Assembly: GCA_026393855.1 (NCBI GenBank)
Contig: JAPKZJ010000101.1
Coordinates: 1-35,422, forward strand
DNA: 35,422 nt
Direction of reading: 5' to 3'
From: Candidatus Aminicenantes bacterium
GTDB taxonomy: Bacteria > Acidobacteriota > Aminicenantia > Aminicenantales > UBA4085
The notes under the pieces are model-generated. The model had not been told where the DNA came from, did not search any database, and worked only from the letters and a program-made list of their open reading frames with translations. Made by a program: the position numbers and the translations under genes. How positions within the stretch are numbered: the stretch's first letter is position 1; each line of letters starts with the position of its first letter. Of the stretch, positions 7,865 through 34,940 are shown in pieces.

Positions 7865-7885
7865 AGAGGCTTGATTCCGATAAAA

Positions 7886-7914
7886 ATACTATTCCCCGAC
7901 GGCATGGCTGTCAA
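7886..7914 (-). promoter_or_regulatory. promoter for the diguanylate cyclase gene
   Basis: On the minus strand, TTGACA (7914-7909), a 17-bp spacer and TAGTAT (7891-7886), about 15 nt leader to the GTG start. It lies back to back with the promoter of the POT transporter. Confidence 0.7.
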
Positions 7915-7927
7915 TTCCCATAATGAG

Positions 7928-7957
7928 TTGACACTCCGCGCGCCTTCCCCGTATAGT
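7928..7957 (+). promoter_or_regulatory. promoter for the POT transporter-reductase operon
   Basis: TTGACA (7928-7933), an 18-bp spacer and TATAGT (7952-7957). Only 13 bp separate its -35 box from that of the divergent diguanylate cyclase promoter. GGAGGG at 7985-7990 is the ribosome binding site for ATG 7997. Confidence 0.75.
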
Positions 7958-7996
7958 GGCTGCGTCCGCAACCATCCCACCGACGGAGGGCCGCAC

Positions 7997-9701: not shown

Positions 9702-11003
9702 ATGACCCATCGGCCTTCGCCTGAGGACGGGAAGCTCTGGGCCGGGCTCGGCCTGGACGTCGAGCTGCACGGCAAGATCCTGGCCTCGATCGCCGCCAAT
9801 TACGATCGCCAAGTCGAGTCCCGTCCCGGCCGCCCGGCGGGGATGCGCTATTTCGACGGCGTCATCCACGGCTCGCACGGCGACCGGGTCCGTGAGGTCA
9901 TGGCCAAGCAGGCGGCCGGGGCCAAGTTCGTCGGCACGTTCTGCGTCTATGTTCCCGAGGAGATCCTGATCGCCCTGGGGACGGTCCACTTGGCGCTGTG
10001 CGGCGGCACAGCCGCGTCTATCCCTTATGCCGAGCAGACCTATCCGCGAAATATGTGCCCCCTGGTCAAATCGACGTTGGGGCTGGCCATGTCCGGGGCC
10101 TGCCCTTATGGACCGCTCGAAGACCTGGCGGTGGGGGAGACGACCTGCGACGCCAAGAAAAAGACTTGGGACGTGCTGGGGCGCGAGGGCGGCTTTCACG
10201 TTTTGGAGCTGCCGCAGAAGAAGAACCCCGCCGACCGGGCGCTGTGGCTGGAAGAGGTCTTGGCCTTCGCCCGTCGGATCGAGGAGTTGACCGGGCGCCC
10301 GCTCGAGGCGGGTCTTTTGGCCGAGGCCGTTCGGCTGATGAACCGCAAGCGCCGGGCCTTGGCCCGGATGCACGAACTGCGGAAGGCCGAGCGGCCGCCC
10401 ATCAGCGGGACGGACGCGCTCGTCGTCATGCAGGCCGCCCTCATCGACGACCCAGAGCGTTTTACTCGCGAGCTGGAAGCCTTGAATGAGGAGCTTTCCG
10501 CCCGGGTCGCCGCGGGGTTCGGGGCCCTTCCGGAAGGGCGAAGGCGGATCATGATCGCGGGGTGCCCGTCGGTTCTGGGCAATTGGAAGCTGCACCATCT
10601 CGTGGAGACCTCGGGGGCCGCCGTCGTAGTGGATGAGAGCTGCACCGGGACCCGCTACTTTACCGGGTTGGTGGACGAGGGCGCCGCGGGATTGGATGAG
10701 ATGCTCGCAGCCATCGCCGACCGCTATATGACCATCGATTGCTCCTGCTTCTCGCCCAACACCGAGCGGATGGAAAACGCCGTCCGGATGGCCGGCGAAT
10801 ATCACGTGGACGGAGTCGTCCAATATATCCTCCATGCTTGCCATACCTACAATGTGGAAGCCATAGCGATGGCCGACGCCCTCAAGGCGGCCGGCGTCCC
10901 CTCGATCAAGATCGAGACCGACTATTCCGAAGAGGACATCGGCCAGCTCCAGATCCGGATCGAGGCCTTCATCGAGAGCTTGGAGTTCCGCCGTGGCGGA
11001 TGA
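9702..11003 (+). CDS. double-cubane-cluster reductase / 2-hydroxyacyl-CoA dehydratase-family subunit
   Basis: A 433-residue member of the 2-hydroxyacyl-CoA dehydratase D-component family (HgdB/BcrC type). The single-subunit form with its own activase matches the double-cubane-cluster anaerobic reductases, which use ATP to drive very low-potential electron transfer. Likely Fe-S ligands are among many conserved Cys: Cys81, Cys100, Cys119, Cys134 and Cys149, with later ones in [23 protein letters not shown] and HACHTYN. The last 11 bp overlap the activase gene, so the two are translationally coupled. The natural substrate cannot be read from sequence; acyl-CoA dehydration from amino-acid fermentation is the alternative. 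The enzyme would be oxygen sensitive. Confidence 0.9.
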
Positions 11004-13968: not shown

Positions 13969-13986
13969 CCGAGCGGATCGGGGGGA

Positions 13987-15384
13987 TCAGGCGTAATACC
14001 GCAGAACGAGGGCCAGGAGCGCCAGCGCCGGCGCAAAAGCGGCGAAGACCGCCAAAATGAGCCGCGCCGGCCGCGAATCGCGAAGCAGCGGCGGCAGGCG
14101 AAGGTTGTAAAGGGCCAGGAATATGAGAGGGCCGAAGGGGATGAAGTAGCGTCCTTGGGCGCCCTCGATGCCCGGCGAGCCGACGGGGTTCCAGAAGGCG
14201 TAGATCATCAGCAGGACGGCGAGCCCTCCAGCCGCGGCCAGGCCCAGCGAGAATGCCCTCCGGCCCCGGCTCCAAACGAGTCCGGGCGTCTTGTCGGTCA
14301 GCCCGGTGCCGATGAGCGCGAGGTAGTATGCCCAGACCAGGCCGAGCGGCAGGGTTACATCGAGCCAGCCGAGCTGGCCGATGAATTCGGGAAAGTGATC
14401 CCGCACATGGACTGTGAGTGAATGCCAAAGCGCACCCAGAAATATAGATGGGTGCGCGGAAGCGTAGCGGACTTGGCCGATCGCGGATACGCCGGCTTGA
14501 AGGGGCACGGAGGTGCCCGATGCGGCCAGTGACCACGCGGCCGTTAGGCCGATAGTTGCTGCCAGCACGAGCGCCGTGAAGGCCTGCTTTTTCTTCCCGC
14601 CTCCCAGCCGGGCTGCGGGGATGATCAGGACGAAGAAGGGCAGAACGGCGTAGATTGGCTTGCCGAGCGCCACGACCGCGGCCAGAACGGCGACGGCGAT
14701 TCTCGTCCGGGATCCGACGGCCGGCTCGGGCTCCAATGCCGCCCGCAGGACGAGGGCGATGAACAGAAACGCCGCGCCGTTCGTCACCGCATCGGCCGAG
14801 GCCGAGGCCGCCTGGGCCAGGGACATCGGCGCCAGCGCCAGGAGCAGGAAGACCCATTTGAAAATCGGCGTCATTCGGATCGCGGCGCCGGCGAGCAGGA
14901 GCCAGGCTAGCAGGTTGGCCAGGCGCATCAGGTAGAGCAGGATAAGAGGATGAGCCTTGACGAGCCGGCCCGCGGCGGCGACGGCGGCTTGCGGCAAGTA
15001 GGGGATGGGCGAGTAGAGAACGGTCGATGGAAATTCGATGAAAGTTTTTTCTTCGGGTGCCAGGGGGATGGCCAGCGCCCGCCGGGTTTCGGCGAGGTTC
15101 GCCTTGACGCTTTCGTTGTGCGCGATGTCGCCCATGGCCAGGTCGGCCGCAGCCTTGAGGCTTTTGGGAAGAAAACCTCCGGCTCTTTGGACCCCGCTGC
15201 TTCGGTCGGCCCGGCCCACGATCCCCCCCTCGGATAATTGATAGGCGCGATAGTAATGCTCCGGCTCGTCCGGAACCTGGAAGGGCGGCGTGAGAGCGAG
15301 GAAGAGAAGGCCGAAGATCGGCGCCAGAAAGGCGAAGACGCGGGAAGGCTCTGGCCCGGATGCTTGTGCGGAAATCGGCTTCAT
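13987..15384 (-). CDS. DUF2142 polytopic membrane protein (GT-C-like)
   Basis: A 465-residue membrane protein with about ten hydrophobic segments. Right after the first TM segment it has the DUF2142 hallmark PPFQVPDEPEHYYRAYQLSEG; the D-E-P-x-H motif resembles the acidic catalytic loop of GT-C glycosyltransferases that use lipid-linked sugars. ATG 15384 (MKPISAQASG) is chosen because the frame's further upstream extension overlaps the divergent YdeI gene and the promoter. Members of this family are often found in surface-glycan loci, but no other glycan genes are adjacent, so the role is inferred only from the family. Confidence 0.85.
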   Translation of the reverse strand: MKPISAQASGPEPSRVFAFLAPIFGLLFLALTPPFQVPDEPEHYYRAYQLSEGGIVGRADRSSGVQRAGGFLPKSLKAAADLAMGDIAHNESVKANLAETRRALAIPLAPEEKTFIEFPSTVLYSPIPYLPQAAVAAAGRLVKAHPLILLYLMRLANLLAWLLLAGAAIRMTPIFKWVFLLLALAPMSLAQAASASADAVTNGAAFLFIALVLRAALEPEPAVGSRTRIAVAVLAAVVALGKPIYAVLPFFVLIIPAARLGGGKKKQAFTALVLAATIGLTAAWSLAASGTSVPLQAGVSAIGQVRYASAHPSIFLGALWHSLTVHVRDHFPEFIGQLGWLDVTLPLGLVWAYYLALIGTGLTDKTPGLVWSRGRRAFSLGLAAAGGLAVLLMIYAFWNPVGSPGIEGAQGRYFIPFGPLIFLALYNLRLPPLLRDSRPARLILAVFAAFAPALALLALVLRYYA

Positions 15385-15411
15385 CGCGCCTTCGGCCTCC
15401 CGATCCGCGCT

Positions 15412-15440
15412 ATTATACCCTTCTCCGCGTCCGTTTATAA
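15412..15440 (-). promoter_or_regulatory. possible promoter for the DUF2142 gene
   Basis: A perfect -10 box TATAAT (15417-15412 on the minus strand) with a weak -35 (TTATAA, 15440-15435) at 17 bp. It sits in the 123-bp gap shared with the divergent YdeI-like gene. Confidence 0.45.
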
Positions 15441-15507
15441 CGGTCGCGGCGCGGCGGCCCGCCTCTGGCCCAGGGGGGTGTTGATTTTCATTTTGAAAAG
15501 GGCGAAG

Positions 15508-15999
15508 ATGAAGCCAAGGAAGAGTGTCATGGGTGGGAAGTCGTTTTCGGCCAAGCTCGTTCGCATGGAAGGGGTGGGAACCTGGACCTATCTGAAAGTC
15601 CCGTTCGACGTGGAGAAGGCTTTCGGCAAGGGCGGTCCGGTCAAGGTCAAGGGAACCGTCGACGGCATCCCCTTCCACAGCTCGCTGCTTCCCAACGGCG
15701 ACGGCAATCACTTCATGGTCGTGCCCAAGCCCGTCCGCGACAAGGCCAAGGTCAAGATTGGCGACCGGGTCAAGGTGGTGGTCGAGCCGGACGCCGCGCC
15801 TCGGCTCGTCGAAGCCCCGCCGGATCTAGCCAAAGCCATCGCCCGCAACAAGGCCGCCAAGCAGGCCTGGGATGGCTTGGCCCCTTCCCACCGCAAGGCT
15901 TACATCGAATGGATCGTTGAGGCCAAGAAGGTCGAAACGCGCGCCCGGCGTGTCGAGAAGGCCGCGGCGCTGATGGCCGAGAAGAAGCCTCTAAAATAA
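15508..15999 (+). CDS. DUF1905/YdeI (OmpD-associated-like) domain protein
   Basis: A 163-residue protein with two parts. The N-terminal DUF1905 beta-barrel-like domain has GTWTYLKVPFDV and VKVKGTVDGIPFHSSL. The C-terminal YdeI/OmdA helical region has LAPSHRKAYIEWIVEAKK, a signature of proteins annotated as bacteriocin-protection or OmpD-associated. The biochemical function of this family is unknown. ATG 15508 is used; ATG 15529 (MGGKSFSAKL), with AGGAAG just upstream, is an equally possible start. The open frame before 15508 overlaps the divergent gene and is rejected. It converges on the HD-domain gene with an 11-bp gap and is Lys/Arg rich. Confidence 0.85.
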   Translation: MKPRKSVMGGKSFSAKLVRMEGVGTWTYLKVPFDVEKAFGKGGPVKVKGTVDGIPFHSSLLPNGDGNHFMVVPKPVRDKAKVKIGDRVKVVVEPDAAPRLVEAPPDLAKAIARNKAAKQAWDGLAPSHRKAYIEWIVEAKKVETRARRVEKAAALMAEKKPLK

Positions 16000-21000: not shown

Positions 21001-23454
21001 TCAAAGACCGGCGCAGATCGCGTTCAGCCGGGTGTCGAGATCTTTCTGCTTGGCCAGGATCTTCCGGAAGCGCGGATCGGCCCGCAGGACGTCCAAGATC
21101 TTGTTTCCGATCAGGTAGGGATAACGATAGAGGTAGTCCTTGACGACCAGAAAGCCGCGGTCGATGCCGTCCCGGATCGACGCCAGCGCCTCTTCTTTGC
21201 GGCCCAAGAGGCAATAGGCGTTGACGATCTCGTAGCCGAAGGGCCGATCCGAAGCCCGGATCAGGCGGAGGGCTTCAGCCCCGTTTCCCGAGGCCGCCTC
21301 GAGCCAGAGCCGGTTGAGATCGTATGCGCGCCTTAGCGTTGACGCCAGAGCGGACGGATTGCCTATGGCCTCGAGCTCCGCCCTTGCTTCGGCCGTCTTC
21401 CGTTGGGCCAGAAGCTGGCGAGCCAACAGAATCCGGACCCGGATCTGGGATGGCCCGGCCGGCCCGAGCCCCCGCAGGATCCGTTCCGCTTCGGCGGCCT
21501 GGCCTAGGAATCCGCGGCAGCCGGCCAGCTGAAAAGCGGGATTGGTGGACAGCGGATCGGTTTCGCGACTTTTCTCGCCGGCCCGCTCGAGATAGACGAC
21601 TGCCTTTTCATAGAGCCCGATGCTGCGCAAGTAGGCTCCGACGCTGAGGAGAACGGGCGCCTGTTCCGGCGCCGCGTCCCGGGCCCGCTTGAAGTACCGC
21701 GCGGCCTCTTCCTGGTTCTGCTGGTAGAAGTAGGACCAGCCCATGGCGATCATCGAATCGGGCAAGGCGGGGTTGGTCTCGAAGGCGTTGCGATAATTCT
21801 CCAGCATCAAGGCCTGATCGGTCGGGTCGCCGGCTTTAACGAAGCGGGCTTCGTGGAGGTCCCCAAGCCCCCGCAAGGCCGGGGTGTAGCGGGCGTCGTG
21901 GGCCAATGCGCCGCGATAGAGCTTGGCCGCATCCTCAAAGTCCGCCGCGGCGTCGCCGTCGCGGTAGCGGGCCTCGAAACGGCGGCCCATGAGGTAATCC
22001 GTGTAGGCCTCCAGGCTGGCCGGGTCCGCTGCGGATGGCGTGGGGGCGACTTTGACTGTCCGGAACGCCGCCAGCCGTTCTCCCACGTCGTCCGCGATCA
22101 GGGCCTGTATGGCAAAATAGTCCCCGACCTTGCCGCCGTAAGGCCTCTTCCAGATCTCCGCTCCCGTCTGCGCATCCCCGAGGGCAAATTCAGCCGTAAG
22201 CATCCCGTCGTGGATATTCAGGCTCCCCGTGAGGATGTGCCGGGCTCCCAGCGTGCGGCCGATCTCGGCCAGCCCGGTCGGCGAGCCGGGGAACTGATTC
22301 GAGGAATATTCCGAAATGATCTTCAGGCCTCCTGCGGCGGCCAGCTTGCCCCGCAGGCCGTGGGTCATGCCGTCGCAGAGAACGGCCTGGTCCCGGCCCG
22401 GACTGCCGTCGACGAGCGGCAGGACCGCCAGCCGCGTCGTCCAGCCTGCCGGAGGGGGTGGGCCGGAGCCGCGGAAGATGAAAAGGTAAGCGCCCAACGC
22501 GGCGAGGATGATCAAGCCGGCCGCTACCGCCGCGGACGGGGCGCGGCGGGAGCGAAGCGCGGCCGAGGGCGTGGGCCGGAGGACGGAGGGATGAGCCGGA
22601 GCCGCCGGATCGATCTCGGCCGCGATCTCCGCCAGCGCGACGCCCAGGGCTTCCGCCGAAGCCGGCCGCGCGGACGGCTCTTTGACCAAGCATCGCAAAA
22701 TGAGGGCGTCCAACGACGCCGGGATCGCGGGGTTGATCGAGGCGGGGGACGGCGCGGCGGATTCGAGCCGGCGGCGAGCCATGGCCCGGTTCGATTCGGC
22801 CTCGAACGGCAGGCGTCCCGTGGTCATCTCGAAGAGGATGACGCCGAGGGCGTAGAGATCGGTCCGGCCGTCGACGTCCCGCCCCTCGACCTGCTCGGGC
22901 GCCATATAGGCCGGCGTGCCGATCATCGCTCCTTCCCGGGTCGGGCCGCTGCCGGCCAGCGGGCGGGCGATGCCGAAATCCATGATCCGCAGCCGATGGC
23001 GGTCGTCGACCATCAGGTTCTGAGGCTTGAGGTCGCGGTGGATGATTCCGGCCCGATGGGCGGCGGCCAGACCGTCACAGATTTGGCGGGCGTATTCGAC
23101 GGCGGTCTGGGGATTGAGGCGGCCGGCCATGCCCAGGACGCTGCGCAGAGTTTGACCTGGAGCGAACTCCATCGTTAAATAGGCGATTCCCTCGGCCTGG
23201 CCGAGGTCGTGCACGCGGACGACGTTGGCGTGGGTGACCTGGCGGGCCGACTTGAGCTCGCGCCGAAACCGTTCCATGCCGGTCGCGTCGTCGGCGATCT
23301 CGGGCGCCAGGATCTTGAGGGCGATCCGTTCGTTGATCGTCGTGTCCAAGGCCTTATAGACGATCCCCATCCCGCCCCGTCCGGCCTCTTCGATGATTTG
23401 GTAGCGGCCTGCGAATAGAGTTCCCGGCGCCAACGCCGGGTCGAACCCTGCCAT
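21001..23454 (-). CDS. transmembrane Ser/Thr protein kinase with TolB-like and TPR regions
   Basis: An 817-residue PknB-type kinase. The N-terminal kinase domain has the Gly loop EAGRGGMGIVY, ATP-binding Lys47 (IALKIL), HRDLKPQN with Asp141, DFG with Asp159, and APEQ. A single TM segment spans about 306-327. Outside it lies a region with LAVLPLVDGS and ARHILTGSLNI, like the domain of adenylate-cyclase/kinase receptors that resembles TolB N-termini. About 350 residues of TPR-like helices follow. The layout suggests an extracytoplasmic sensor controlling a cytoplasmic kinase; the signal is unknown. It faces away from the flavoprotein gene with a shared promoter region. Confidence 0.93.
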   Translation of the reverse strand: MAGFDPALAPGTLFAGRYQIIEEAGRGGMGIVYKALDTTINERIALKILAPEIADDATGMERFRRELKSARQVTHANVVRVHDLGQAEGIAYLTMEFAPGQTLRSVLGMAGRLNPQTAVEYARQICDGLAAAHRAGIIHRDLKPQNLMVDDRHRLRIMDFGIARPLAGSGPTREGAMIGTPAYMAPEQVEGRDVDGRTDLYALGVILFEMTTGRLPFEAESNRAMARRRLESAAPSPASINPAIPASLDALILRCLVKEPSARPASAEALGVALAEIAAEIDPAAPAHPSVLRPTPSAALRSRRAPSAAVAAGLIILAALGAYLFIFRGSGPPPPAGWTTRLAVLPLVDGSPGRDQAVLCDGMTHGLRGKLAAAGGLKIISEYSSNQFPGSPTGLAEIGRTLGARHILTGSLNIHDGMLTAEFALGDAQTGAEIWKRPYGGKVGDYFAIQALIADDVGERLAAFRTVKVAPTPSAADPASLEAYTDYLMGRRFEARYRDGDAAADFEDAAKLYRGALAHDARYTPALRGLGDLHEARFVKAGDPTDQALMLENYRNAFETNPALPDSMIAMGWSYFYQQNQEEAARYFKRARDAAPEQAPVLLSVGAYLRSIGLYEKAVVYLERAGEKSRETDPLSTNPAFQLAGCRGFLGQAAEAERILRGLGPAGPSQIRVRILLARQLLAQRKTAEARAELEAIGNPSALASTLRRAYDLNRLWLEAASGNGAEALRLIRASDRPFGYEIVNAYCLLGRKEEALASIRDGIDRGFLVVKDYLYRYPYLIGNKILDVLRADPRFRKILAKQKDLDTRLNAICAGL

Positions 23455-23579: not shown

Positions 23580-24491
23580 ATGCAAAGCCATCAAGCGGAT
23601 ATCCTGATCATCGGCGCCGGCCCGGCCGGCCTGACGGCGGCCATCTACGCCGCCCGGGCGGGCAAGAAGACGATCGTCCTGGAGGGCGAACGGGCGGCCT
23701 CCCGCATGTCGATCGGCTGGGAGCTGGAGAACTTCCCCGGCTATCTGTCCATCAACAGCCAGGATCTGCTGGAGAAGTTCCGATCCCATGCCGCCCATTT
23801 CGGGGCCGAGTTCGTCAAGGGCGATGCCATCGCCTTGTCCCTGGAGGGCGATCCCAAGTTCGTCTCCACGACCGACGCCTTCATCGAGGCCAAGACCGTC
23901 GTCCTGGCGACCGGCAAGCCGTTCGCCAAGGAGCGCCAGATCCCGGGCGAGGAGCGGCTGGTCGGGTACGGAGTCAGCTATTGCGCGGTCTGCGACGGGC
24001 CGCTCTATCGGGGCCGCGAGGTCGCCGCCTACGGCGCGTCGGAAGAGGCCGTTGAAGACGTCATGGCCCTCAATCAGATGGGGGCCAACGTCCATTGGAT
24101 CACCGGGAAGCTCAAGGATCCGGCCGCCCTGGAAGAGTCCTTCGTCAAGGCCGAGAAGAAGGGCGTCGTCCTGCATGCCGGGATGGAGATCAGGGAAATC
24201 GTCGGTGAAAAGGGCGTTGAAAAGCTCGTCCTCAAAGGCCCGGCCGGGGACGAGGAGCTTTCCGTCGCGGCCGTCTTCCTCTTTCGGGAAGTCCCCACCG
24301 GCCCGCTCTTTACCAAGGCCGGACTCACCCTCGACCACAAGCAGTGCCTGGCGGTGGATCGGTTCGGGCGAACCAACCTGACCGGCGTCTACGCGGCCGG
24401 CGACAACACTTGCGGCGGGCTCCAGGTCGTGGCGGCGGCGGGGGAGGGATGTGTCGCGGCTTTGCAGGCTTTGGCTTATCTGCGGAAATAG
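23580..24491 (+). CDS. thioredoxin-reductase-like FAD oxidoreductase, atypical NADPH site
   Basis: A 303-residue two-domain flavoprotein of thioredoxin-reductase size. FAD binding is shown by ILIIGAGPAGLTAAIYAARAG at the N-terminus and YAAGDNTCGG near the C-terminus. The redox disulfide is Cys135-Cys138 in SYCAVCDG. The second nucleotide site is unusual: the usual GGGDSA-type loop is YGASEEA, and the segment after it reads NVHWITGKLKD with no HRR-type 2'-phosphate clamp. NADPH may therefore not be the donor; NADH or ferredoxin are alternatives. It lies about 1 kb from the selenoprotein array, but those proteins are exported while this one is cytoplasmic, so a direct partnership is unproven. 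Confidence 0.9.
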   Translation: MQSHQADILIIGAGPAGLTAAIYAARAGKKTIVLEGERAASRMSIGWELENFPGYLSINSQDLLEKFRSHAAHFGAEFVKGDAIALSLEGDPKFVSTTDAFIEAKTVVLATGKPFAKERQIPGEERLVGYGVSYCAVCDGPLYRGREVAAYGASEEAVEDVMALNQMGANVHWITGKLKDPAALEESFVKAEKKGVVLHAGMEIREIVGEKGVEKLVLKGPAGDEELSVAAVFLFREVPTGPLFTKAGLTLDHKQCLAVDRFGRTNLTGVYAAGDNTCGGLQVVAAAGEGCVAALQALAYLRK

Positions 24492-25469: not shown

Positions 25470-26948
25470 CTACTTGATGGCCGCGGCTTGGGTCTTGATC
25501 TGGTCCACCATGCGTTGCACGTTCGCTTTCTGGGCCGCGGGCGCGACTGCCAGGGCCTTGTCGGCCGCCTTGATGGCTTCGGCCCCGTTCTTCATCTTGA
25601 CGTAAACCTGGGCCATCGACGTCCAGGCGACGAAATTGTCCGGGGTCAGCTCGGCCGCTTTCTTGGCCGCTTCCAGGGCGCTGTCCAGGTTTTTCTCCTG
25701 GCGGGCCCAGAAAGAGGCGTAGGGAGTGAGGACTGTCGCGTTGGCCAGGTTCTTCTTCAGGAAATCCGGTCCGTAGCAGGCCAGAGCCTTGTCCTCTGCG
25801 CCGATGTCCAAGTATGCCTGGGCGAAGCTCGTGAGCGCGCGGGCGTTGTCGCCCGCCGTCTTGATGGCCGCGTCGACAGTGGCAACGGCTTGGGCCTTGT
25901 CGCCTTTGAGCGCGTAAAGCCGAGCCAGGTTGAGCTCCAGGCTGGAGTTCATGATGACGCCGCCGGGTCCGACCATCACCGTCCCCGGAACGGCCCCTTG
26001 CGGAGCCGCCGAAGACTTGGACATCGCAATGGCCGCCTTGGCCAGCTCGATGCCCTTGTCGACGGGCTCCTTGTCCTGCAGGATGCGCTGGACCCAAGCC
26101 GTGAGCGGCATGGCGTCGTTGGGGAAGCGGGCGGCGTATTCGGCGTAGAACGTGGCCGCCTGGTCCTTGGGCGCCGTGCGCGCGAAGTAGGCGCCGCTCA
26201 GGCGAGCGTAGGCCGTCTTGACCATCTCGCCGCCGGGGTACTTCTTGACGAAGGCCAGCATCGCGGCCGGATCGGCGGGACGGGTGCCCAGCGCGGCGAT
26301 GCCGATATTGAACTCGGCGTACTTGGTGTACGTCACTTTTTCGGAGACGCCGGGCTGGCCGGGCTCGTAAAGCGTCGTTCCCTTCTTCCCGTCGGGATCG
26401 AGGGCTACGACCTTTTTGTAGAATTCGGCCGCCTTGACCTGGTCGTAGCGATCTTCATACTTCCTGGCCAGCTTGAAGACGGTCTCGACCGCATTGGGGT
26501 CCTTGGCAAAAGCCAGCATCAGGCTCTTGTAGGTGCCCTCGCCTTTTAGAATATTGTCGACTTGGTCCTTGAATTTGTCGGCCGGGGGATCGTAGCCGAG
26601 GATCCAATCCACGGCTTCGCCGCTGCCGTCAAAGAACATGATTGTCGGGGTGGCCCTGACCGCGTACTTGTCGAAGACGATCCGTCCCGCGGGTTCCTGC
26701 GTAAAGACCCGGAAAAGAACGAAGTTCTTGGTCAGGAAATCCTTGTACTGGGGGTTGTCGTAGAACTGCTCACCGAGCAGTTTGCAGCTCGGTCACGTGT
26801 AGGAGTTGAAGTCGAGGAGAACCAGCTTGTTCTCCGCCTTGGCCTTGGCGAACGCTTCGTCAAGCGAGCCCTGGAACCAGGGCAGGCTCTGGGCGGAAGC
26901 AGCCGCGGCCAACAGGAGGAGAAGCGAAAGCGCCAGGGCTTTTTTCAT
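25470..26948 (-). CDS. selenocysteine-containing thioredoxin-fold/TPR protein, paralogue 1 (UPSC)
   Basis: One reading frame of 492 codons interrupted only by an in-frame TGA at 26795-26793, read here as Sec52. Residues 1-20 are a signal peptide (MKKALALSLLLLLAAAASAQ). The thioredoxin-like domain follows: LVLLDFNSYT, then U52-P-S-C55, KLLGEQFYDNP, and the cis-proline motif RATPT with Pro101, 46 residues after Cys55. The C-terminal ~340 residues are helical TPR-like repeats. ATG 26948 has GGAGG at good spacing. It likely acts as a periplasmic thiol/selenol oxidoreductase on unknown partners. The final stop is TAG. This copy has the most divergent active site, with Thr before Sec where the other three have Gly. 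Conventional gene calling would split it into 26793-26948 and a fragment starting near 26639. Confidence 0.88.
26766..26780 (-). promoter_or_regulatory. SECIS-like hairpin of paralogue 1
   Basis: In the transcript, CTGCTC-GGT-GAGCAG: a 6-bp stem extended to 8 bp by flanking AA/TT, with a GGU apical loop. The core stem begins 12 nt after the UGA, putting the loop 18 nt downstream, as expected of bacterial SECIS elements read by SelB. Confidence 0.8.
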
Positions 26949-26953
26949 GAAGA

Positions 26954-26978
26954 CCTCCGTTGGAATAAAGAACGGAGG
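26954..26978 (-). promoter_or_regulatory. 5' UTR hairpin covering the ribosome binding site of paralogue 1
   Basis: Arms 26954-26961 and 26971-26978 are a perfect 8-bp inverted repeat with a 9-nt loop. The GGAGG ribosome binding site is in the 3' arm, so the fold would hide it from ribosomes. Confidence 0.5.
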
Positions 26979-26979
26979 G

Positions 26980-27008
26980 ACTATAGCCCAGGCCCGGGGC
27001 GGAGTCAA
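26980..27008 (-). promoter_or_regulatory. promoter of selenoprotein paralogue 1
   Basis: On the minus strand, TTGACT (27008-27003), a 17-bp spacer and TATAGT (26985-26980). Confidence 0.65.
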
Positions 27009-27034
27009 TCAGCCTTCAGAATAGGGGGGAATGG

Positions 27035-27065
27035 CCGGGAGGGCGCCGCGGGGACGCCCTCCCGG
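27035..27065 (-). terminator. strong hairpin after selenoprotein paralogue 2
   Basis: An 11-bp perfect stem (CCGGGAGGGCG at 27035-27045 with 27055-27065), 9-nt loop, placed 10 bp after the TAA stop. No U run follows, so it may be a weak or rho-assisted terminator or an mRNA-stabilising structure. Confidence 0.55.
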
Positions 27066-27075
27066 AGAGAAGGGC

Positions 27076-28590
27076 TTACTTCTTGTCCGCGGCCTGGGCG
27101 GTCTTGATCCGCTCCAGGGAAGCGCGCATCGCCGGCTTGATTTGATCGTCGGCCAAGGCGACCGCCTTCTCGGCGGCCTGAACGGCCTCGTCCCACTTCT
27201 TGACCTTCTGAAGCGCCGTTGCCAGGCCGCTCCAATAGTAGTATTTGTCGGGGTCCGTGGCGATCGCCTTGCGGAGCGCCGCCAGCGCGGCATCCATGTT
27301 CTTGCCCTGGCCGCTCCAGAACGCGCCGTAGCTGTACTGGTTGGTGGATTTGTCGCCGTTCTTCGCGAGCCAAGCCGGGCCGAAGACCTCCATGGCCTTG
27401 TCCTCGCGCCCGAGCTTGATCAGGACGCTCGCCCCCTGCTGAATGATGTACAGAAAATCCGGTTTCAGCCGCATGGCCGTTTCGACCATTTCTAGGGCGC
27501 TATCCTTGTTGGCATCGCGCCCGGCCCAGAACTGGGCGTACTCGATCAGATCGATGGCCAGAGCGGTGGCCTGGCCTTCCATGAATGACTTGCCATAGAC
27601 GTCCTCGATCTTGGCCGTCTCGTTGCGGTTGGCGTAAAGCTCGGCCACGTCCTTGTTGTACCCCCGGACCGGGTTGGATCGGGTCAGGGCCCGGATCCGG
27701 GCGGCCAGCTCGGCACCCTTGTCGAAAGGCCCCTTGTCCCGGTTGATGCGGGCCAGCCACATATCCAGGACTTTCGGATCGTTGGGGAACTTGCCCGCGT
27801 ACTCCTCGAAGAACTTGGCCGACTCCTCTTTCGTACCCTGGTAGGAATAGGCGAAGGAAAGCGTCTGATACGCCTGCTTGAGAAGTTTGCTGTCGGGATA
27901 CTTGGCGATGAAAGCCCGCATCGACGCCGGGTCCGGCTTCATCGTCATGACCGAATTGTAGCCGATCTGGTACTCGGCATATTCGGTATAGGGGACCTCT
28001 AGGCCGTCGGGTTCCACCCGGTACGGCCCGGTCGTGCCTTGGGGGTCAAGCGCGATGACAGCCTGGAAGAACTCCTTGGACTTGGCCTCGTCGTAACGGT
28101 CGCCCCATTTCAGGGCCAGCTTGAAGACCGTCGGGACGTCCTTGGGATTCTTCGCATAAGCCGCGGCCAAAACCCTGTAGGTGTCGATGCCGGCCGGGAT
28201 CTTGAGCATCTTCTCATGAAAGACGTCGGCCGGAAGATCGTAGCCGACGATCCAGTCGATCTCCGCCCCGGAGGCGTCCAGGAAGAGGATGGTCGGCGTG
28301 GCGTTGATCTTGAAGCGCTTGAACAGGGCGCTGCCTGCTTTGTCGGCGCTGTCCGCCCGGACCATGACGAACGTCTTGTCGAAGAAGCCTTTATACTTGG
28401 GGTTGGTGTAATACTGCTGACCCAGCAGTATGCAGGCCCCTCAGCCACCGCTGAAGAAGTCGACGAGAACGAGCTTGTTCTCGGACTTGGCCTTGGCCAC
28501 GGCCTGTTCCACGGTGCCGGGGAACCAGGTCTGGGCCGAGGCGGCGGCGGCGAGGAGCAGGATCAGGACGGGAACGGCGAGCTTTTTCAT
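27076..28590 (-). CDS. selenocysteine-containing thioredoxin-fold/TPR protein, paralogue 2 (UGAC)
   Basis: One frame of 504 codons with a single in-frame TGA at 28443-28441, read as Sec50. A signal peptide (MKKLAVPVLILLLAAAASAQ) leads into the thioredoxin-like domain: LVLVDFFSGG, U50-G-A-C53, ILLGQQYYTNP, and NATPT with cis-Pro99. The remaining ~350 residues are TPR-like helices with recurring motifs such as EYAGKFPNDP. ATG 28590 is preceded by GAGGAGG. Downstream coding continues from TGA to TAA 27076 without another stop. Its SECIS-like stem differs from the others by a compensatory pair, giving LLGQQ instead of LLGEQ. The upstream promoter is unclear: a palindromic element lies where the -35 box would be. 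Confidence 0.88.
28414..28428 (-). promoter_or_regulatory. SECIS-like hairpin of paralogue 2
   Basis: In the transcript, CTGCTG-GGT-CAGCAG, extended by ATA/TAT to 9 bp. The closing pair C-G of the other three copies is G-C here, and an outer A-T is T-A. The core stem again starts 12 nt after the UGA. Confidence 0.82.
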
Positions 28591-28609
28591 TCCGGCCTCC
28601 TCGAGAATC

Positions 28610-28630
28610 GGCGGACGGGTTTCGTCCGCC
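28610..28630 (-). other. hairpin upstream of paralogue 2
   Basis: A perfect 8-bp stem (GGCGGACG at 28610-28617, complement 28623-28630) with a 5-nt loop. It would fall in the 5' leader or promoter of paralogue 2. Role unknown. Confidence 0.45.
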
Positions 28631-28650
28631 CGCAAAAGAATACATCAAAG

Positions 28651-28780
28651 AATAGGGGGACACCATACATAACTCCCGAATTATTTCCGCGAACTTTTAT
28701 TGACGGCAACGGGGCCATAAATTGACAGGAAGCTCTCGTTGAAAACAGCAATTCGGGAGTTATATAGGGTGTCCCCGAAT
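28651..28780. repeat. palindromic mobile-type repeat, family B copy 1
   Basis: Left arm 28656-28682 and right arm 28750-28776 are a 27-bp inverted repeat with two mismatches (arm begins GGGGACACC and includes ATAACTCCCGAATT). The core is about 67 bp without coding content. The outer edge reads AATAGGGGGACACC. It shares ACACCATACATAACTCCCGA-type sequence with the element at 32035-32236, so the two are copies of one family. REPIN or MITE-like; no transposase nearby. Confidence 0.75.
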
Positions 28781-28781
28781 T

Positions 28782-28814
28782 AAAAAAAAAGGACGAGCCC
28801 GAAGGCTCGTCCTT
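28782..28814 (-). terminator. rho-independent terminator of selenoprotein paralogue 3
   Basis: An 11-bp perfect stem (28789-28799 with 28804-28814), CGAA loop on the plus strand, followed in the transcript by a run of about nine U (A run at 28782-28790). It starts 20 bp after the TAA stop at 28834. Confidence 0.92.
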
Positions 28815-28833
28815 GTAGAACTTCGGATTCGTC

Positions 28834-30339
28834 TTACTTCTTTTCGGGGGCCAGAAGCTTGTCGAGAGCGGGCTTGTACATCGGCTTAACCTGGTCGGGC
28901 GCCAGCTCGATGGCCTTCTGATAGGCCTTGATCGCCTCGGTCTTGGCGCCCGTCTTGCCCAGGATGTCGCCCAGGTTGGCCCACTGGTAATACTGGGCCG
29001 GCTTGAGCGCGACGGCTTTCTTGGCTGCGGCCAGGGCGCTGTCCAGATTCTTGCCCTGCCGGGCCCAGAACGAGGAGTAGGAGTAGAGCGCGGAGGCGTC
29101 GGTCATCTTGGCCTCGGCCCATTTCGGGCCGAACAGGGCCATGGCTTTATCCTCCAGGTTCATCTTCACGTACAGCGCGGCCGCCTGCTGGATGAAATAG
29201 GCGTTCTCCGGCTCGAGCTTGAGGGCCGTCTCGGCCATGGCTCGGGCGCTGTCCAGGTTTTCATTCTTTCCCAGCCAGAACTCGGCGTAGGAGATGAGGT
29301 TGTAGCCCAGGCTCTGGACCTGACCATCGGCGTATTCCTTGCCGAAAGCGGTCGCGGCCTTGGCCTTGTCGCCCTTGGCCAGGTAGAAGTCGCCCAGCGA
29401 CTGCTGGAGATAGGGATCCTGGTTGCGCTGGGTCAGCCGCTCGATCGTTTCAGCCAGCTCCAGGCCTTTGTCATAGGGCCCCTTGTCCATGACGATCCGG
29501 TTCAGCCACGCCTGCAGGGCGTAGGGATCATCGGGGTACTTGGCCGCGTACTCGGCGAAGGCGGCGGCCGCTTCGTCCTTGGACGCTTGACGACCGTAGT
29601 AATTGGCCATAGACGAATAGGCGCTCTTGACCATCGGACTCGAGGGGTACTTGGCAATGAAGGCCTTGATCGGCCCCATGTCCGGCTTGGCCGTCCGCGG
29701 CATCGTCGTGGCCAGGCTGTACTCGGCCATGACCGTGTAGGGCACGGTCACCTTGGTGTACTCGTTGGTGTAATTGCCCGACTTGCCCTCGGGATCGAGG
29801 GCGATGACCTTCTTGTACAGCTCGATGGGCTTGACCTCGTCGAAGCGGTCGGACCACTTGCGGGCCAGCTTGAAGGCCAGGGCGGCGTCATTGGGGTTCT
29901 TGGCGTAGGCGTCGTTGACGGCCTTGAAGGTGTCCTCGCCCTTGATGACCTTCTCCAGCTTGGCCTGGAAGTTCTCGGGCGGGGGGCCGTAGCCGACGAA
30001 CCAGTCCACTTCGGCCCCATCGGAGCCGAGGATGATGGTCGTCGGGGTGGCGCGGATAGCGTACTTTTTAAAAACGGCGCTGCCGATGTCCGTGTCGGTA
30101 TCGGCGCGGAAGAGGACGAAATTCTTGTCCTGGAAGGCGTGGAACTTGGGGTTTTCGTAGAACTGCTCACCGAGCAGTTTGCAGCCCCCTCAGCCGGCGC
30201 TGAAGAAGTCGATGATGACCAGCTTGTTCTCAACCTTGGCCTTGGCCACGGCCTGGTCCAAAGAGCCTTTAAACCAGTTTTGGGCCGAAGCGAAGGAGGC
30301 GAGAACAAGCACGAGTGCTATGACCAGTGCTTTTTTCAT
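28834..30339 (-). CDS. selenocysteine-containing thioredoxin-fold/TPR protein, paralogue 3 (UGGC)
   Basis: One frame of 501 codons with an in-frame TGA at 30192-30190, read as Sec50. Signal peptide MKKALVIALVLVLASFASAQ, then the thioredoxin-like domain: LVIIDFFSAG, U50-G-G-C53, KLLGEQFYENP, and RATPT with cis-Pro99. This is followed by GAEVDWFVGYGPP, a conserved segment also found in its paralogues, and ~350 residues of TPR-like helices. ATG 30339 has GAGAGG upstream. The gene has its own promoter and a strong terminator, so it is a separate transcription unit. Apart from Sec in place of Cys, the active site resembles thioredoxin-like periplasmic proteins of the WCxxCK type. Confidence 0.9.
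30163..30177 (-). promoter_or_regulatory. SECIS-like hairpin of paralogue 3
   Basis: In the transcript, CTGCTC-GGT-GAGCAG with AA/TT extension to 8 bp. The core stem starts 12 nt after the UGA. A more distant GGGG/CCCC pairing around it is also possible. Confidence 0.8.
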
Positions 30340-30356
30340 GCTTACCTCTCTTGAAG

Positions 30357-30386
30357 ATACTACTTTCGACCGGGGTGGCCTGTCAA
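30357..30386 (-). promoter_or_regulatory. promoter of selenoprotein paralogue 3
   Basis: On the minus strand, TTGACA (30386-30381), an 18-bp spacer and TAGTAT (30362-30357). Confidence 0.7.
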
Positions 30387-30470
30387 ATTCGCTGACGACG
30401 GCGCAGCCCGGGCGGAAGCCGTTCGTAAGAGAATACGCCGTTTCGGCCGTGAAGGTTACGATCCGGAAGA

Positions 30471-31982
30471 CTATTTTTTTTCGGCTGCGGCCGCCTTGGC
30501 TTTCTCCAGATTCTTCTGCATGGCCGGCTTGGCCGCGGGGGAGGCGAACTCGACCGCCTTTTCGGCTGCTTGGACGGCTTCTCCGTAGTTTTTCATCTTG
30601 AGCAGGACGTCGGCCATGGCCTGCCAGTGGTAGTAGGCTCGGGGCCGGAGGTCCAGCGCCCGTTTGCACGCGGCCAGGGCGCTGTCCAGGTTGATTCCCT
30701 TCTGGGTCCAGAACCAGATGTAGGACCGCAGCTCGCCGGGCTCGTCCCAACGGGCGCGAACGAATCCGGGCCCGAACAAATCCAGAGCTTTGGCCTGGTC
30801 GCCCAGCGTCAGAAACACGTCGGCGGCCTGCTGGAGAATGTAAGGGTTCCCGCCCAGGAGCTTCACGGCGGCTTCGGCCATCGACCGGGCGCTGTCCTGG
30901 TGGAGGCCCTGCTTGACCCAGAAGTCGGCGTATTCGAGGAGTCCGAAGGCCGTCGAGGACAGCAGGCTGTCGGCGAAAGCGAGGCCGAACTCTTCTTCGG
31001 CCTTGGCCTTGTCCCCGCTGTCGACGTAGAACTGGGCCGTGAGGGCGGTCAGGAACGGCTCGGGCGAGTTTTCGGTCAGCTCTTTCAGCCGCTCGGCGAT
31101 CTGGCGGCCTTTGTCATAAGGTCCCTTCTCGGCCATGATCCGCTGCAGCCAATAGTAGAGGACCATGGAGTCGGACGGGAAGCGGGCGGCGTATTCCTCG
31201 TAGAACGCGAAGGCTTCCTCTTTGGGCGCCGATCGGATGAAGAAGATTTCAAGGCTCGAGTAGGCCTGACGGATCATCTCGCCGGCCTGGTGGGTTTTGA
31301 TGAACTCTCTCATTGGGACCGGGTCGCGCTTGCCGGTCAGCGGGGCGTAGGCGATCTGGTATTCGGCCCATTCCTTATAGGGGACCGCCACTTTCATGTA
31401 ATCGGGCTTGTAAGAGCCGGCCTTGCCGTCGGGGTCGAGGGCCAGGACTTCGCGGAACTTCTCGGCCGCCTTGTCGGCCATCGCCCGCATGCGGTACTTC
31501 TCGCCCAGCTTGAAGACCGCGGACACATCCTTGGGGTTCTTGGCGTAGGCCTGGGTCAGGGCCCGGACGGAGTCGATGCCGTCCAGGGCCAGCTTGACCT
31601 TGGCCTTGAACTTGTCCGCCGGCGGCGTATAGCCGACGATCCAATCGATCTCGTTTCCGTCGCCGTCCAGGATCAGGGCGGTCGGCGTGCTCCGGATGCC
31701 GTACTTGGCGAAGAGGGCGGCGCCTTTCTCTTCGTCCCGGTCGGCCCGGAAGGGGATGAAGTTCTCTTTCAGAAAGGAGGCGTAGGCGGGGTTTTCGTAG
31801 AACTGCTCACCGAGCAGTCGGCAGCCCCCTCAGCCGTCCGAGTAGAAGTCGACGATGACCAGCTTGTTCTCGGTCTTGGCCTTGGCCAGGGCCTCTTCGA
31901 ACGACCCGGGGAACCAGCCCTGGGCCGAGGCGGCGGCGGCGAAGGCAAGGAGGAGGGCGATGGCGAGCGCGGCGCGTTTCAT
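30471..31982 (-). CDS. selenocysteine-containing thioredoxin-fold/TPR protein, paralogue 4 (UGGC)
   Basis: One frame of 503 codons with an in-frame TGA at 31832-31830, read as Sec51. Signal peptide MKRAALAIALLLAFAAAASA, then LVIVDFYSDG, U51-G-G-C54, RLLGEQFYENP, and RSTPT with cis-Pro100, followed by NEIDWIVGYTPPADKF. The C-terminal ~350 residues are TPR-like (for example EYAARFPSDSMVLYYWLQRI). ATG 31982 is supported by GAGAGG and by the promoter at 32001-32030, which lies inside the longer open frame. The final stop is TAG. It is the first gene of the array on the minus strand. It is probably a periplasmic selenol-dependent oxidoreductase; partners unknown. Confidence 0.9.
31803..31817 (-). 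promoter_or_regulatory. SECIS-like hairpin of paralogue 4
   Basis: In the transcript, CTGCTC-GGT-GAGCAG, extended by A-T and a G-U pair. The core stem starts 12 nt after the UGA, exactly as in the other three copies. Confidence 0.8.
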
Positions 31983-32034: not shown

Positions 32035-32236
32035 AATAGGGGGACGAGCTTTGCCGTCCTCGTTGATTGAACAACGAGGGCACCATACGTAATCCCCTAT
32101 CCTATTTGCTGCAAAGGGTGCCGACTGGGGCGGGCAAACTGAATTTTATCGATGATTGACGCAATAGGATCGGGAGTTACGTATGGTGCCCTACCATTCT
32201 TACGAATGATAGGACTGCCGAGCCCGTCCCCCTATT
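32035..32236. repeat. nested palindromic mobile-type repeat, family B copy 2
   Basis: About 202 bp with ends AATAGGGGGACG and its complement. Inside each arm is a small hairpin: 32058-32079 (CCTCGTTG/CAACGAGG) on the left and about 32191-32212 (CTACCATTC/GAATGATAG) on the right. Further in is a long inverted match (GGGCACCATACGTAA at about 32079-32093 with its complement at 32176-32190, then CCTATT with AATAGG). The whole can fold into a branched cruciform. The right end contains the OsmC-like gene's TAG stop; the left end abuts the paralogue 4 promoter. Confidence 0.75.
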
Positions 32237-32657
32237 CTTTTTTGATGACGAAAGAGGACGTGATTGCGATGCTGCCTTTGAGCATGGCCCAGACGGGGCA
32301 GTACTTTTCCTCGGACATCTTGATCGCCTTCGCGACGACGGCGGGATCGATACCGGGCCCGGCCACCCGGAACTCGAGGTGGATCGCGGTGAAGACCCGG
32401 GGATGCTCTTCGTGCTTGTCGCCGGCCGCCCGGACCGAAAAAGCCCGGACATCCTGCTTCATCTTCTGAAGAAGCGAGACCGTGGTCTGTCCGGAACACG
32501 AGGCCAGGGCCATCAGCAGCAGCTCCGTCGGCTTGTGCCCGAGCCCGTCGCCGAGCGGCGGCAAATAATCGATGGGCACGGGGTGATCGAACTCGGCCGT
32601 GCCTTCAAAATGATATCGGCCCGTCCACTTCGTTTCGCAGGTCGATTGTTCCGGCAT
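32232..32657 (-). CDS. OsmC/Ohr-family protein
   Basis: A 141-residue OsmC-fold protein; the family reduces organic hydroperoxides with two Cys. Here the two expected Cys are present: LLMALASCSGQTTVSLL and KMSEEKYCPVWAML. Length is normal for the YhfA-like OsmC branch, which is less well understood than Ohr. ATG 32657 lies 15 bp after the VapC-like stop, so it may be read through from the toxin-antitoxin promoter. The final TAG stop lies inside the terminal repeat of the palindromic element, suggesting insertion at the very end of the gene. Confidence 0.92.
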   Translation of the reverse strand: MPEQSTCETKWTGRYHFEGTAEFDHPVPIDYLPPLGDGLGHKPTELLLMALASCSGQTTVSLLQKMKQDVRAFSVRAAGDKHEEHPRVFTAIHLEFRVAGPGIDPAVVAKAIKMSEEKYCPVWAMLKGSIAITSSFVIKKE

Positions 32658-32672
32658 TGGGGATTCCTCGTT

Positions 32673-33059
32673 TTATGCGTTCTTTTTCTTGGCCGGTACG
32701 AAATGAACTCCCGGCAAGCTCTCGAAATGGCGGTCTTGGGTCCAGATCTCGGCGTCGCAGCGGGCCGCCGTCGCGGCGATGATGCTGTCGGCCGTCGGTA
32801 GTCGATGGGCCAGGCTGATCCGAGCCGCGCGTACGGCGATATCCTCGGTCAACTCGATGATCCGGCCCTGCCTCATGGCGGCTACAGCCTGCACCGCCGC
32901 ATCTTCCCCGCGCTCTCGCGACGCGACCTTGAAGACCTCGAATATCACCAAAGTCGGGACGAGGAGATCTTCCTTGGCGGCCAGGGCAGGTTCGAAAAAG
33001 GCCGCGTTGGGACCGTCGGCGAAGAATTCAAGCCAGCCCGACGAATCGACTAGATTCAC
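32673..33059 (-). CDS. PIN-domain ribonuclease toxin (VapC-like)
   Basis: A 128-residue PIN-domain protein. The acidic metal-binding residues are visible: Asp in MNLVDSSGW, Glu in LVIFEVFKVA, Asp in LPTADSIIAATA and Asp in TQDRHF. The family cleaves tRNA or rRNA and is held inactive by its cognate antitoxin. Its ATG overlaps the antitoxin stop by 4 bp (ATGA), the usual translational coupling for such pairs. Confidence 0.92.
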   Translation of the reverse strand: MNLVDSSGWLEFFADGPNAAFFEPALAAKEDLLVPTLVIFEVFKVASRERGEDAAVQAVAAMRQGRIIELTEDIAVRAARISLAHRLPTADSIIAATAARCDAEIWTQDRHFESLPGVHFVPAKKKNA

Positions 33060-33383: not shown

Positions 33384-34940
33384 TTACTTCAGTTCTTTGC
33401 GCGGCACCATCTCGTCCGCCGTGGCTGCGTGCCAGGCATAGGCGGCCATGATGACGGCGTTCTTGATCAGGTCTTGCGGCTGGATCGTGTCCAAAAAGTC
33501 GAGATTGGTATGGCCCGCCGTTCCCGGGATGCGGTCCTGAATGAACTGGAACCCGGGCAGGCCGGCCCGGTCGAACGAGACGTGGTCGGTCGAGCCGACG
33601 CTCTGGTTTGAGACGGCCCAGCAGCCCATGTCGCGGAACGGCTCCATCCAGGCCGCGAGCATCCGCCGAGCCCGCTCGTTGCCCTGCAGGTAGATGCCGC
33701 GGAAAGCCCCAGCCCCGTAATCCATGTTGAAGTAGGCCGAGAGCTTGTCGTACTCGGGCTTTTTGCCGATCCTGGCGTCTTTGGGATCGCCGAAGTGCTT
33801 CTTGACGTATTCGCCCGATCCGAACAGCCCCTGCTCCTCGCCGCCCCACCAAGCCACCCGGATCGTCCGGCGCGGCTTGGCTCCGATCGCCTTGAGAATG
33901 CGCGCCGCCTCCAGGGCCACGGCGCAGGCGGCGCCGTCGTCGCTGGGGCTCGGGCTGGCGTGCCAGGTGTCGAAGTGGGCACCGATGATGACAATCTCGT
34001 CCTTGAGGTCGGAGCCGGGAATCTCGCCGACGAGGTTCTGGGCCCACTCGCGCTCCTTGCCGATGCGGTTGCGGACTTCGACCTCGACCTTGACCGGGAT
34101 GTTCCGCTTCAGGATGCGGTACATCCGGTTGTAGTGCTCGGGGGTGATCGAGAGGATGGGAAGCGAGGCCATGGTAGCCTCATAACCCCATTTATCGTCG
34201 CGCGTCCCGGGCCGGGCGAATCCGGTGACCGCGCCGGGCCGGCCGCTGGGGCATTGGAAAACGACGAGGGCGCCCTCGGCCTTGAAGAAGGCGATCTTAT
34301 CCTCGGGCCGCGCCTGATCGGGATTGGGTCCGCCGCCGCCGGCCGCGGGATTCGCGGGCCGGGGCGCCGGAAGGACGGTCTCTTCGAGCTTTTTCAGGTC
34401 TTCGTCGGTGTAGCGGTTGACCGTGGCGAAAATAGCGTAGGGATCGACGGCCGCGGGCGGCGTCATCAAGATCGCCGCACCTTTGAGCTTGCCCTTGAGC
34501 TTGGCCAAGTCGGTCTTGGTCTGGGCGTCGACGATGACGGCCGGGAGGGTCAGCTTGCCGTTCGTGCCCGGCGTATGGGCCAGCGGGTAACCGACCATCA
34601 TCTGGTAGTCGGGCTCAAGCATATGGATCGAAGTGTATTCGTTGTCCCAGGCGACTCCGTAGTCCATGAACGGTTCCAGGGCGACGTTCTCGAGCCCGAC
34701 CTGGACGAACTTGTCCTTGGCCCAGGCGTGGCCCTTCTTCATGTCTTGCGAGAGCGTCAGGCGCGGCCCGATGACGTCGGTCATGTAGCCGACGACGTCC
34801 ATGACCTGCGAGCGTTGCAGGCCTTCCTCGCGGATGCGGGCGACCGTGTCCCAGTCGACCTTCGGCGAGCCGGATTGGGCGAAGCCAAGGAGCGGGACGA
34901 GGATCAGGGCGGCGATGAGAGATTTGCGGGCCAAGGACAT
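33384..34940 (-). CDS. secreted M28-family zinc aminopeptidase
   Basis: A 518-residue exported metallopeptidase with a signal peptide (MSLARKSLIAALILVPLLGFAQ). A protease-associated-type insertion (about 130-280) precedes the M28 catalytic domain. The two-zinc ligands and catalytic residues are visible in order: His in GAHFDTWH, Asp in SPSDDGAA, Glu-Glu in WWGGEEQGLFGSG, Asp in YFNMDYGAG, and His in GTAGHTNLDFLD. It would release amino acids from peptide N-termini outside the cytoplasm, matching the POT peptide importer elsewhere in the window. AAGGAGG lies just before ATG 34940. Confidence 0.95.
   Translation of the reverse strand: MSLARKSLIAALILVPLLGFAQSGSPKVDWDTVARIREEGLQRSQVMDVVGYMTDVIGPRLTLSQDMKKGHAWAKDKFVQVGLENVALEPFMDYGVAWDNEYTSIHMLEPDYQMMVGYPLAHTPGTNGKLTLPAVIVDAQTKTDLAKLKGKLKGAAILMTPPAAVDPYAIFATVNRYTDEDLKKLEETVLPAPRPANPAAGGGGPNPDQARPEDKIAFFKAEGALVVFQCPSGRPGAVTGFARPGTRDDKWGYEATMASLPILSITPEHYNRMYRILKRNIPVKVEVEVRNRIGKEREWAQNLVGEIPGSDLKDEIVIIGAHFDTWHASPSPSDDGAACAVALEAARILKAIGAKPRRTIRVAWWGGEEQGLFGSGEYVKKHFGDPKDARIGKKPEYDKLSAYFNMDYGAGAFRGIYLQGNERARRMLAAWMEPFRDMGCWAVSNQSVGSTDHVSFDRAGLPGFQFIQDRIPGTAGHTNLDFLDTIQPQDLIKNAVIMAAYAWHAATADEMVPRKELK

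Follow-up and report, generated by a model that had tools for sequence, protein, structure and literature searches.

Tandem thioredoxin-TPR genes with in-frame TGA codons in a Candidatus Aminicenantes genome, predicted to encode exported U-x-x-C selenoproteins

The analysed stretch of DNA (35,422 nucleotides, referred to throughout as the window) corresponds to contig C101 in a Candidatus Aminicenantes assembly of 3.68 Mb in 144 contigs with an estimated completeness of 95.3%, the closest named relatives of which are nearly all Candidatus Aminicenantes MAGs (Acidobacteriota). Four consecutive genes on the minus strand, here named A to D, were identified in the window, each with exactly one in-frame TGA, no further in-frame stops and a Shine-Dalgarno-like sequence upstream (Table 1). 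When the TGA is read through, the open reading frames give intact proteins of 492–504 residues ending in TAA or TAG, as a preliminary description of this sequence had stated.

Table 1. Features of the array, its surroundings in the window and the selC regions of related genomes
Feature	Sequence	Position	Strand	Details
Gene A	Window	30471-31982	-	Predicted exported Trx-TPR selenoprotein, 503 aa; Sec51 (TGA 31830-31832); stop TAG
Gene A SECIS-like element	Window	31785-31832	-	TGA + hairpin CTGCTC-GGT-GAGCAG; R1 model 65.0 bits; covariation
Gene B	Window	28834-30339	-	Predicted exported Trx-TPR selenoprotein, 501 aa; Sec50 (TGA 30190-30192); stop TAA
Gene B SECIS-like element	Window	30145-30192	-	R1 model 75.5 bits
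Gene C	Window	27076-28590	-	Predicted exported Trx-TPR selenoprotein, 504 aa; Sec50 (TGA 28441-28443); stop TAA
Gene C SECIS-like element	Window	28396-28443	-	Compensatory G-C version CTGCTG-GGT-CAGCAG; R1 model 68.6 bits
Gene D	Window	25470-26948	-	Predicted exported Trx-TPR selenoprotein, 492 aa; Sec52 in U-P-S-C (TGA 26793-26795); stop TAG
Gene D SECIS-like element	Window	26748-26795	-	R1 model 68.4 bits
OsmC-family gene, upstream of array	Window	32232-32657	-	Pfam OsmC 71.7 bits
PIN-domain ORF, between M28 and OsmC genes	Window	32673-33059	-	
M28 peptidase gene	Window	33384-34940	-	Pfam Peptidase_M28 108.4 bits
Ser/Thr protein kinase with TPR	Window	21001-23454	-	
Thioredoxin-reductase-like gene	Window	23580-24491	+	233 bits (cut-off 343)
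Double-cubane-cluster anaerobic reductase, HgdB type	Window	9702-11003	+	NF040772, 447.6 bits, over cut-off
selC region of relative	L162	4293-7900		
selC region of relative	L163	1-9200		
selC region of relative	L164	7179-7275		
selC region of relative	L165	6559-6602		

All four predicted proteins begin with MKK or MKR followed by a hydrophobic stretch ending in ASAQ, which reads by eye as signal-peptide-like, and share the motifs LV(L/I)(L/V/I)DF, U-x-x-C, LLG(E/Q)Q(F/Y)Y and TPT. Each matched Thioredoxin_2/Thioredoxin_7 (PF13098/PF13899) at 36–58 bits (Pfam gathering cut-off 27) and continues as TPR repeats to its end, over ~370 residues. Pfam and the alignment, together with the signal read by eye, therefore bear out the architecture first reported for these tandem minus-strand genes, with one amendment: the TPT proline, initially placed about 46 residues past the TGA residue, lies 49 residues past it. 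The four TGAs occupy a single alignment column, which corresponds, as proposed, to the first Cys of CxxC. The other array paralogues are 44–46% identical to gene A, the most divergent of the four in the tree. A fifth copy with the same TGA, its 3′ end cut off, was found at the end of host contig C8.

The window holds several other genes. The PIN-domain ORF looks like an insertion, given that the M28 and OsmC genes overlap or adjoin in relatives. Genes related to the TPR-containing kinase also occur near arrays in three other loci (L072, L074 and L075). The thioredoxin-reductase-like gene lies ~1 kb beyond the array on the opposite strand, in a neighbourhood not seen conserved in relatives, and the HgdB-type reductase gene adjoins a gene for a POT-family transporter.

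Homologues of the array genes were recovered from 10 of the 12 family genomes, and every match spanning the active site contained one TGA. A scan of the phylum (396 genomes) gave the same result for every core homologue, defined by a score of over 300 bits, all of which fell inside the host's order; two Ignavibacteria MAG contigs (L078 and L084) also carried the same TGA. Among close orthologues, the sequence past the TGA was under purifying selection (dN/dS 0.10–0.42 over 436–453 codons). Since the codon is shared by independently assembled relatives and selection extends beyond it, its presence by chance is not credible, and the earlier judgement that the TGAs are hard to explain by error or decay is upheld.

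Among the core homologues, none with Cys at the site was found. Distant relatives in other acidobacterial groups (~100 bits) had either Cys (DWCxxC; L146, L147, L149-L151, L155-L157, L160 and L092) or a predicted Sec (WUGxC or DTUxxC; L145, L148, L152-L154, L158 and L159) at the site. Comparison of homologues at the TGA position, suggested in the preliminary description, thus returned Sec in the core and Sec or Cys further out, with no random residues. Shorter, apparently exported Trx-like proteins from other acidobacterial classes form a sister group with WUGxC or DTUxxC (L090, L093, L148, L152-L154, L158 and L159); there the putative SECIS hairpin differs, most of the distant Sec forms having another hairpin-forming stretch, GGACCGTGA-GTCC, in common. 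Three longer Sec homologues of ~722 aa (L063, L088 and L089) share the N-terminal TGA and its hairpin but are extended at the C-terminal end. A second TGA in these, at residue 723, was judged a normal stop because the lengths past it differ.

Phylogenetic analysis separated a clade of gene D and its orthologues from a clade of the A/B/C type. Both types are adjacent in several genera, and the tandem layout is therefore old and no local artefact. Searches of viral and plasmid collections returned one weak Trx-level match each.

Within the order, the Trx-TPR family was found as a Sec form or not at all, and its distribution tracked that of selA: 19 genomes had both and 15 neither, with one discordant genome in each direction (Fisher p = 4e-8, relatedness ignored). 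One of these, G005, is 86% complete and has the family without selA, while the other, G344, has selA only, with an incomplete gene where a contig ends. selA was also unmatched in some genomes with distant Sec forms (G287 and G147).

A further feature, absent from the preliminary description, is a covarying SECIS-like hairpin. In nearly every core gene the TGA is followed by a perfect hairpin of 8 bp, CTGCT(C/G)-GGT-(G/C)AGCAG, with the GGT (GGU) loop at +22 to +24 (the T of TGA being +1), presumably the position of the hairpin loop in E. coli fdhF as well. The hairpin lies just 3′ of the TGA, as expected of a bacterial SECIS element, and its apical loop is small and includes a conserved G, a feature described previously (PMC1088965).

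Across 36 distinct sequences, standard pairs filled 98.6% of pair cells, compared with 88.1% in shuffles, the covariation score was 0.259 (0.075 in shuffles), and four of the eight pairs showed changes on both sides. Sliding the partner by 1–3 columns destroyed the pairing, and RNAalifold predicted the same helix unaided. The innermost pair (21-25) was C-G in 12 sequences and G-C in 24, with zero exceptions. This pair couples the silent third base of a Leu codon to the first base of a Glu/Gln codon, and protein constraint alone therefore does not account for the covariation. The switch has arisen several times, scattered over the tree, and even the sister genes G008_1 and G009_1 differ in it; of the outer pairs, one is replaced by U-A in the two Ignavibacteria sequences, and L028 and L063 have C-G at another. 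When sequences were folded singly, each hairpin was only slightly more stable than its shuffled versions (z −0.7 to −1.7) and the MFE fold of gene D was a different hairpin, so that the case for the element rests on covariation. Scoring of 150 of the 1215 first-look candidates in the host with a family-specific SECIS model gave no credible hairpin beyond the five copies.

The machinery for Sec decoding, which the preliminary description had named as a check on its reading, was recovered in part. selA, selB and selD (533.6, 367.2 and 367.9 bits, each over its curated cut-off) are clustered on host contig C60, where the gene downstream of selB encodes an S41 peptidase. selC was absent from the incomplete host assembly in searches with the Rfam model, an anticodon/T-arm pattern and BLAST with the tRNA-Sec of a relative, and from the sel contig in searches with ARAGORN or Rfam; the best host matches to the Rfam tRNA-Sec model were tRNA-Ser, and the pattern gave non-tRNA matches only. 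A clear and complete tRNA-Sec with anticodon TCA was present in three family genomes (G001, G008 and G009). In G009 selC directly follows selB, after which the contig ends, and in G001 some 3.5 kb separate the two genes; a contig of G007 ends inside selC, and in G008 partial copies occur both at the start of a contig and further inside it. The anticodon of one G008 copy (L115) is TAA. In G001, G007 and G008 selC is split, duplicated or displaced, often at contig ends, in a manner resembling integration sites or repeats. The host gene may accordingly lie where the genome is rearranged or prone to repeats, and have been dropped from the assembly.

TGA also terminates ordinary genes in the window and the sel cluster, among them those for a pyrophosphatase, a kinase and selB. 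Two further candidates on L014 were not taken as selenoproteins: an ORF with one TGA beside selD (6763-8256), in which the TGA looks like an ordinary stop, and another (13975-15924) in which it precedes the likely start.

An AlphaFold model of the gene B product (mean pLDDT 91.4, pTM 0.71) placed Sec50 just ahead of the active-site helix (residues 51–61). The closest fold to the Trx domain was DsbH (2ju5; Z 15.7, rmsd 2.2, 115 residues aligned), and many thioredoxins also matched at Z of about 14.5. The tail matched the TPR proteins CTPR4 and MamA in fold comparison. Whole-model Foldseek matches were TPR superhelices with high rmsd, indicating little beyond 'TPR', and CnoX was not among the fold matches listed, an absence that carries no weight. 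A DsbD-like protein is encoded elsewhere in the host (302 bits, cut-off 330).

The Trx fold and motif, the TPR tail and the DsbD-like protein point to a thiol:disulfide reductase that is exported and holds clients with its TPR arm, and we consider it likely that the array consists of functional tandem selenoprotein genes encoding such a protein. Tandem duplication would have given rise to the four genes, with Sec inserted by the ribosome at each UGA under the direction of the adjacent hairpin and SelB/tRNA-Sec; judged from sequence, Sec decoding of the TGAs, taken alone, appears almost certain. The product would be exported via its signal peptide and act as an extracytoplasmic thiol:disulfide (selenenylsulfide) reductase, in which the Sec of UxxC, where the active-site helix begins, would act as nucleophile and the Cys three positions later would resolve the intermediate. 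Fold and genome content suggest that the TPR tail serves to hold substrates or partners, the protein working in the manner of an exported, selenium-using chaperedoxin or DsbH-like reductase, and that re-reduction is probably carried out by the DsbD-like membrane protein of the host. We hold this reductase and TPR-client mechanism, considered separately, with moderate confidence.

The Trx-TPR unit might instead be mainly a peroxidase or oxidant scavenger tied to the neighbouring OsmC-type gene, which we regard as unlikely. Known families owe a higher peroxidase reactivity to Sec, and OsmC, upstream of the array in the window, separates M28 from it in three related loci (L072, L077 and L081); given this M28–OsmC–array order, the proteins may have a role in oxidant defence. 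However, the U-x-x-C motif, the TPT that follows it and the nearest fold matches, DsbH and thioredoxin, are features of reductases, the OsmC protein has no visible signal peptide and would thus reside in a different compartment, and the OsmC linkage is not universal. The M28 gene adjoins the array in five related loci, and OsmC and M28 as neighbours indicate no single pathway.

A periplasmic disulfide oxidase or isomerase of the DsbA/DsbC type would also fit a Trx fold, apparent export and replacement of CxxC by U-x-x-C. We give this reading slightly less credence still, as the best matches are reductases (DsbH, thioredoxin and the C-terminal domain of DsbD) and the host encodes a DsbD-like reductant.

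That the TGAs are real stops, in decayed genes or as sites of leaky termination with short products, could find support in the selC gene missing from the host assembly. We consider it highly improbable, as the same single TGA is shared by dozens of homologues, drawn from many genera and from Ignavibacteria, the codons past it are under selection at the dN/dS values given above, a covarying hairpin follows at fixed spacing and there are no other in-frame stops in the four array genes. A genome-wide code change to an ordinary amino acid, from which an open frame cannot by itself distinguish Sec, is scarcely conceivable, since TGA ends the three genes named above, selA, selB and selD are present, and two features are particular to Sec, namely the hairpin and, in distant relatives, the Sec/Cys exchange.

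If the favoured reading of exported Sec reductases is correct, exported Sec chaperedoxins may be the reason why these bacteria keep selenocysteine, with tandem copies diversified per client. In known bacterial selenoprotein families, Cys forms are mostly common. The proteins described here, in contrast, have an architecture outside the current inventory, are Sec-only in the core family, have been multiplied in tandem and track the Sec-decoding genes. Opinion can be evenly divided on whether they amount to an unlisted, lineage-restricted and obligately Sec-containing Trx-TPR U-x-x-C family that may explain why the order keeps the Sec trait; as such they would be a candidate reason for selenocysteine retention in a widespread uncultured lineage. 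Automated annotation would tend to call such genes truncated or to start them past the TGA, so that the N-terminal active site is lost from databases. The covarying hairpin with its Glu/Gln switch, moreover, is an example of protein sequence constrained by RNA structure.

An inventory of 119 prokaryotic selenoprotein families published in 2026 contains no Trx-TPR family (PMC13188914), no NCBIfam model reaches its cut-off for these proteins, and the open-access literature, to which the search was confined, yielded no article about Aminicenantes selenoproteins. These results agree with the original suggestion that no tandem family of this kind had been described, and the array proteins look like a real selenoprotein family missing from current lists. 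Sec-containing Thioredoxin_2 proteins with UxxC are already known (PMC13188914). Among them, the thiol:disulfide interchange selenoprotein WP_011366075.1 shares PF13098 and Sec as the first residue of UxxC with the array proteins, whereas Table 1 of that inventory, the description on which this comparison is based, gives it neither a TPR tail nor a tandem array. The Trx7/PDZ selenoprotein NF041199 is likewise of the Thioredoxin_7 type but has CxxU and PDZ in place of UxxC and TPR (19 bits, cut-off 300). TsoB (NF045694), a rhodanese/DsbD fusion-like selenoprotein, matches weakly through its C-terminal DsbD-like Trx (33–44 bits, cut-off 805) and differs in its UxxxxU motif and architecture. DsbH and the C-terminal thioredoxin domain of DsbD provide the closest fold (2ju5) and weak profile matches, yet they lack both TPR and Sec, and the DsbH model NF043050 gave about 20 bits against a cut-off of 190. 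In overall layout the array proteins resemble the chaperedoxin CnoX/YbbN, in which an N-terminal thioredoxin domain is also followed by a C-terminal TPR region (PMC6282202); unlike CnoX, a cytoplasmic protein with an SxxC or CxxC motif, they combine a signal-peptide-like N-terminus with a predicted Sec and a longer TPR tail.
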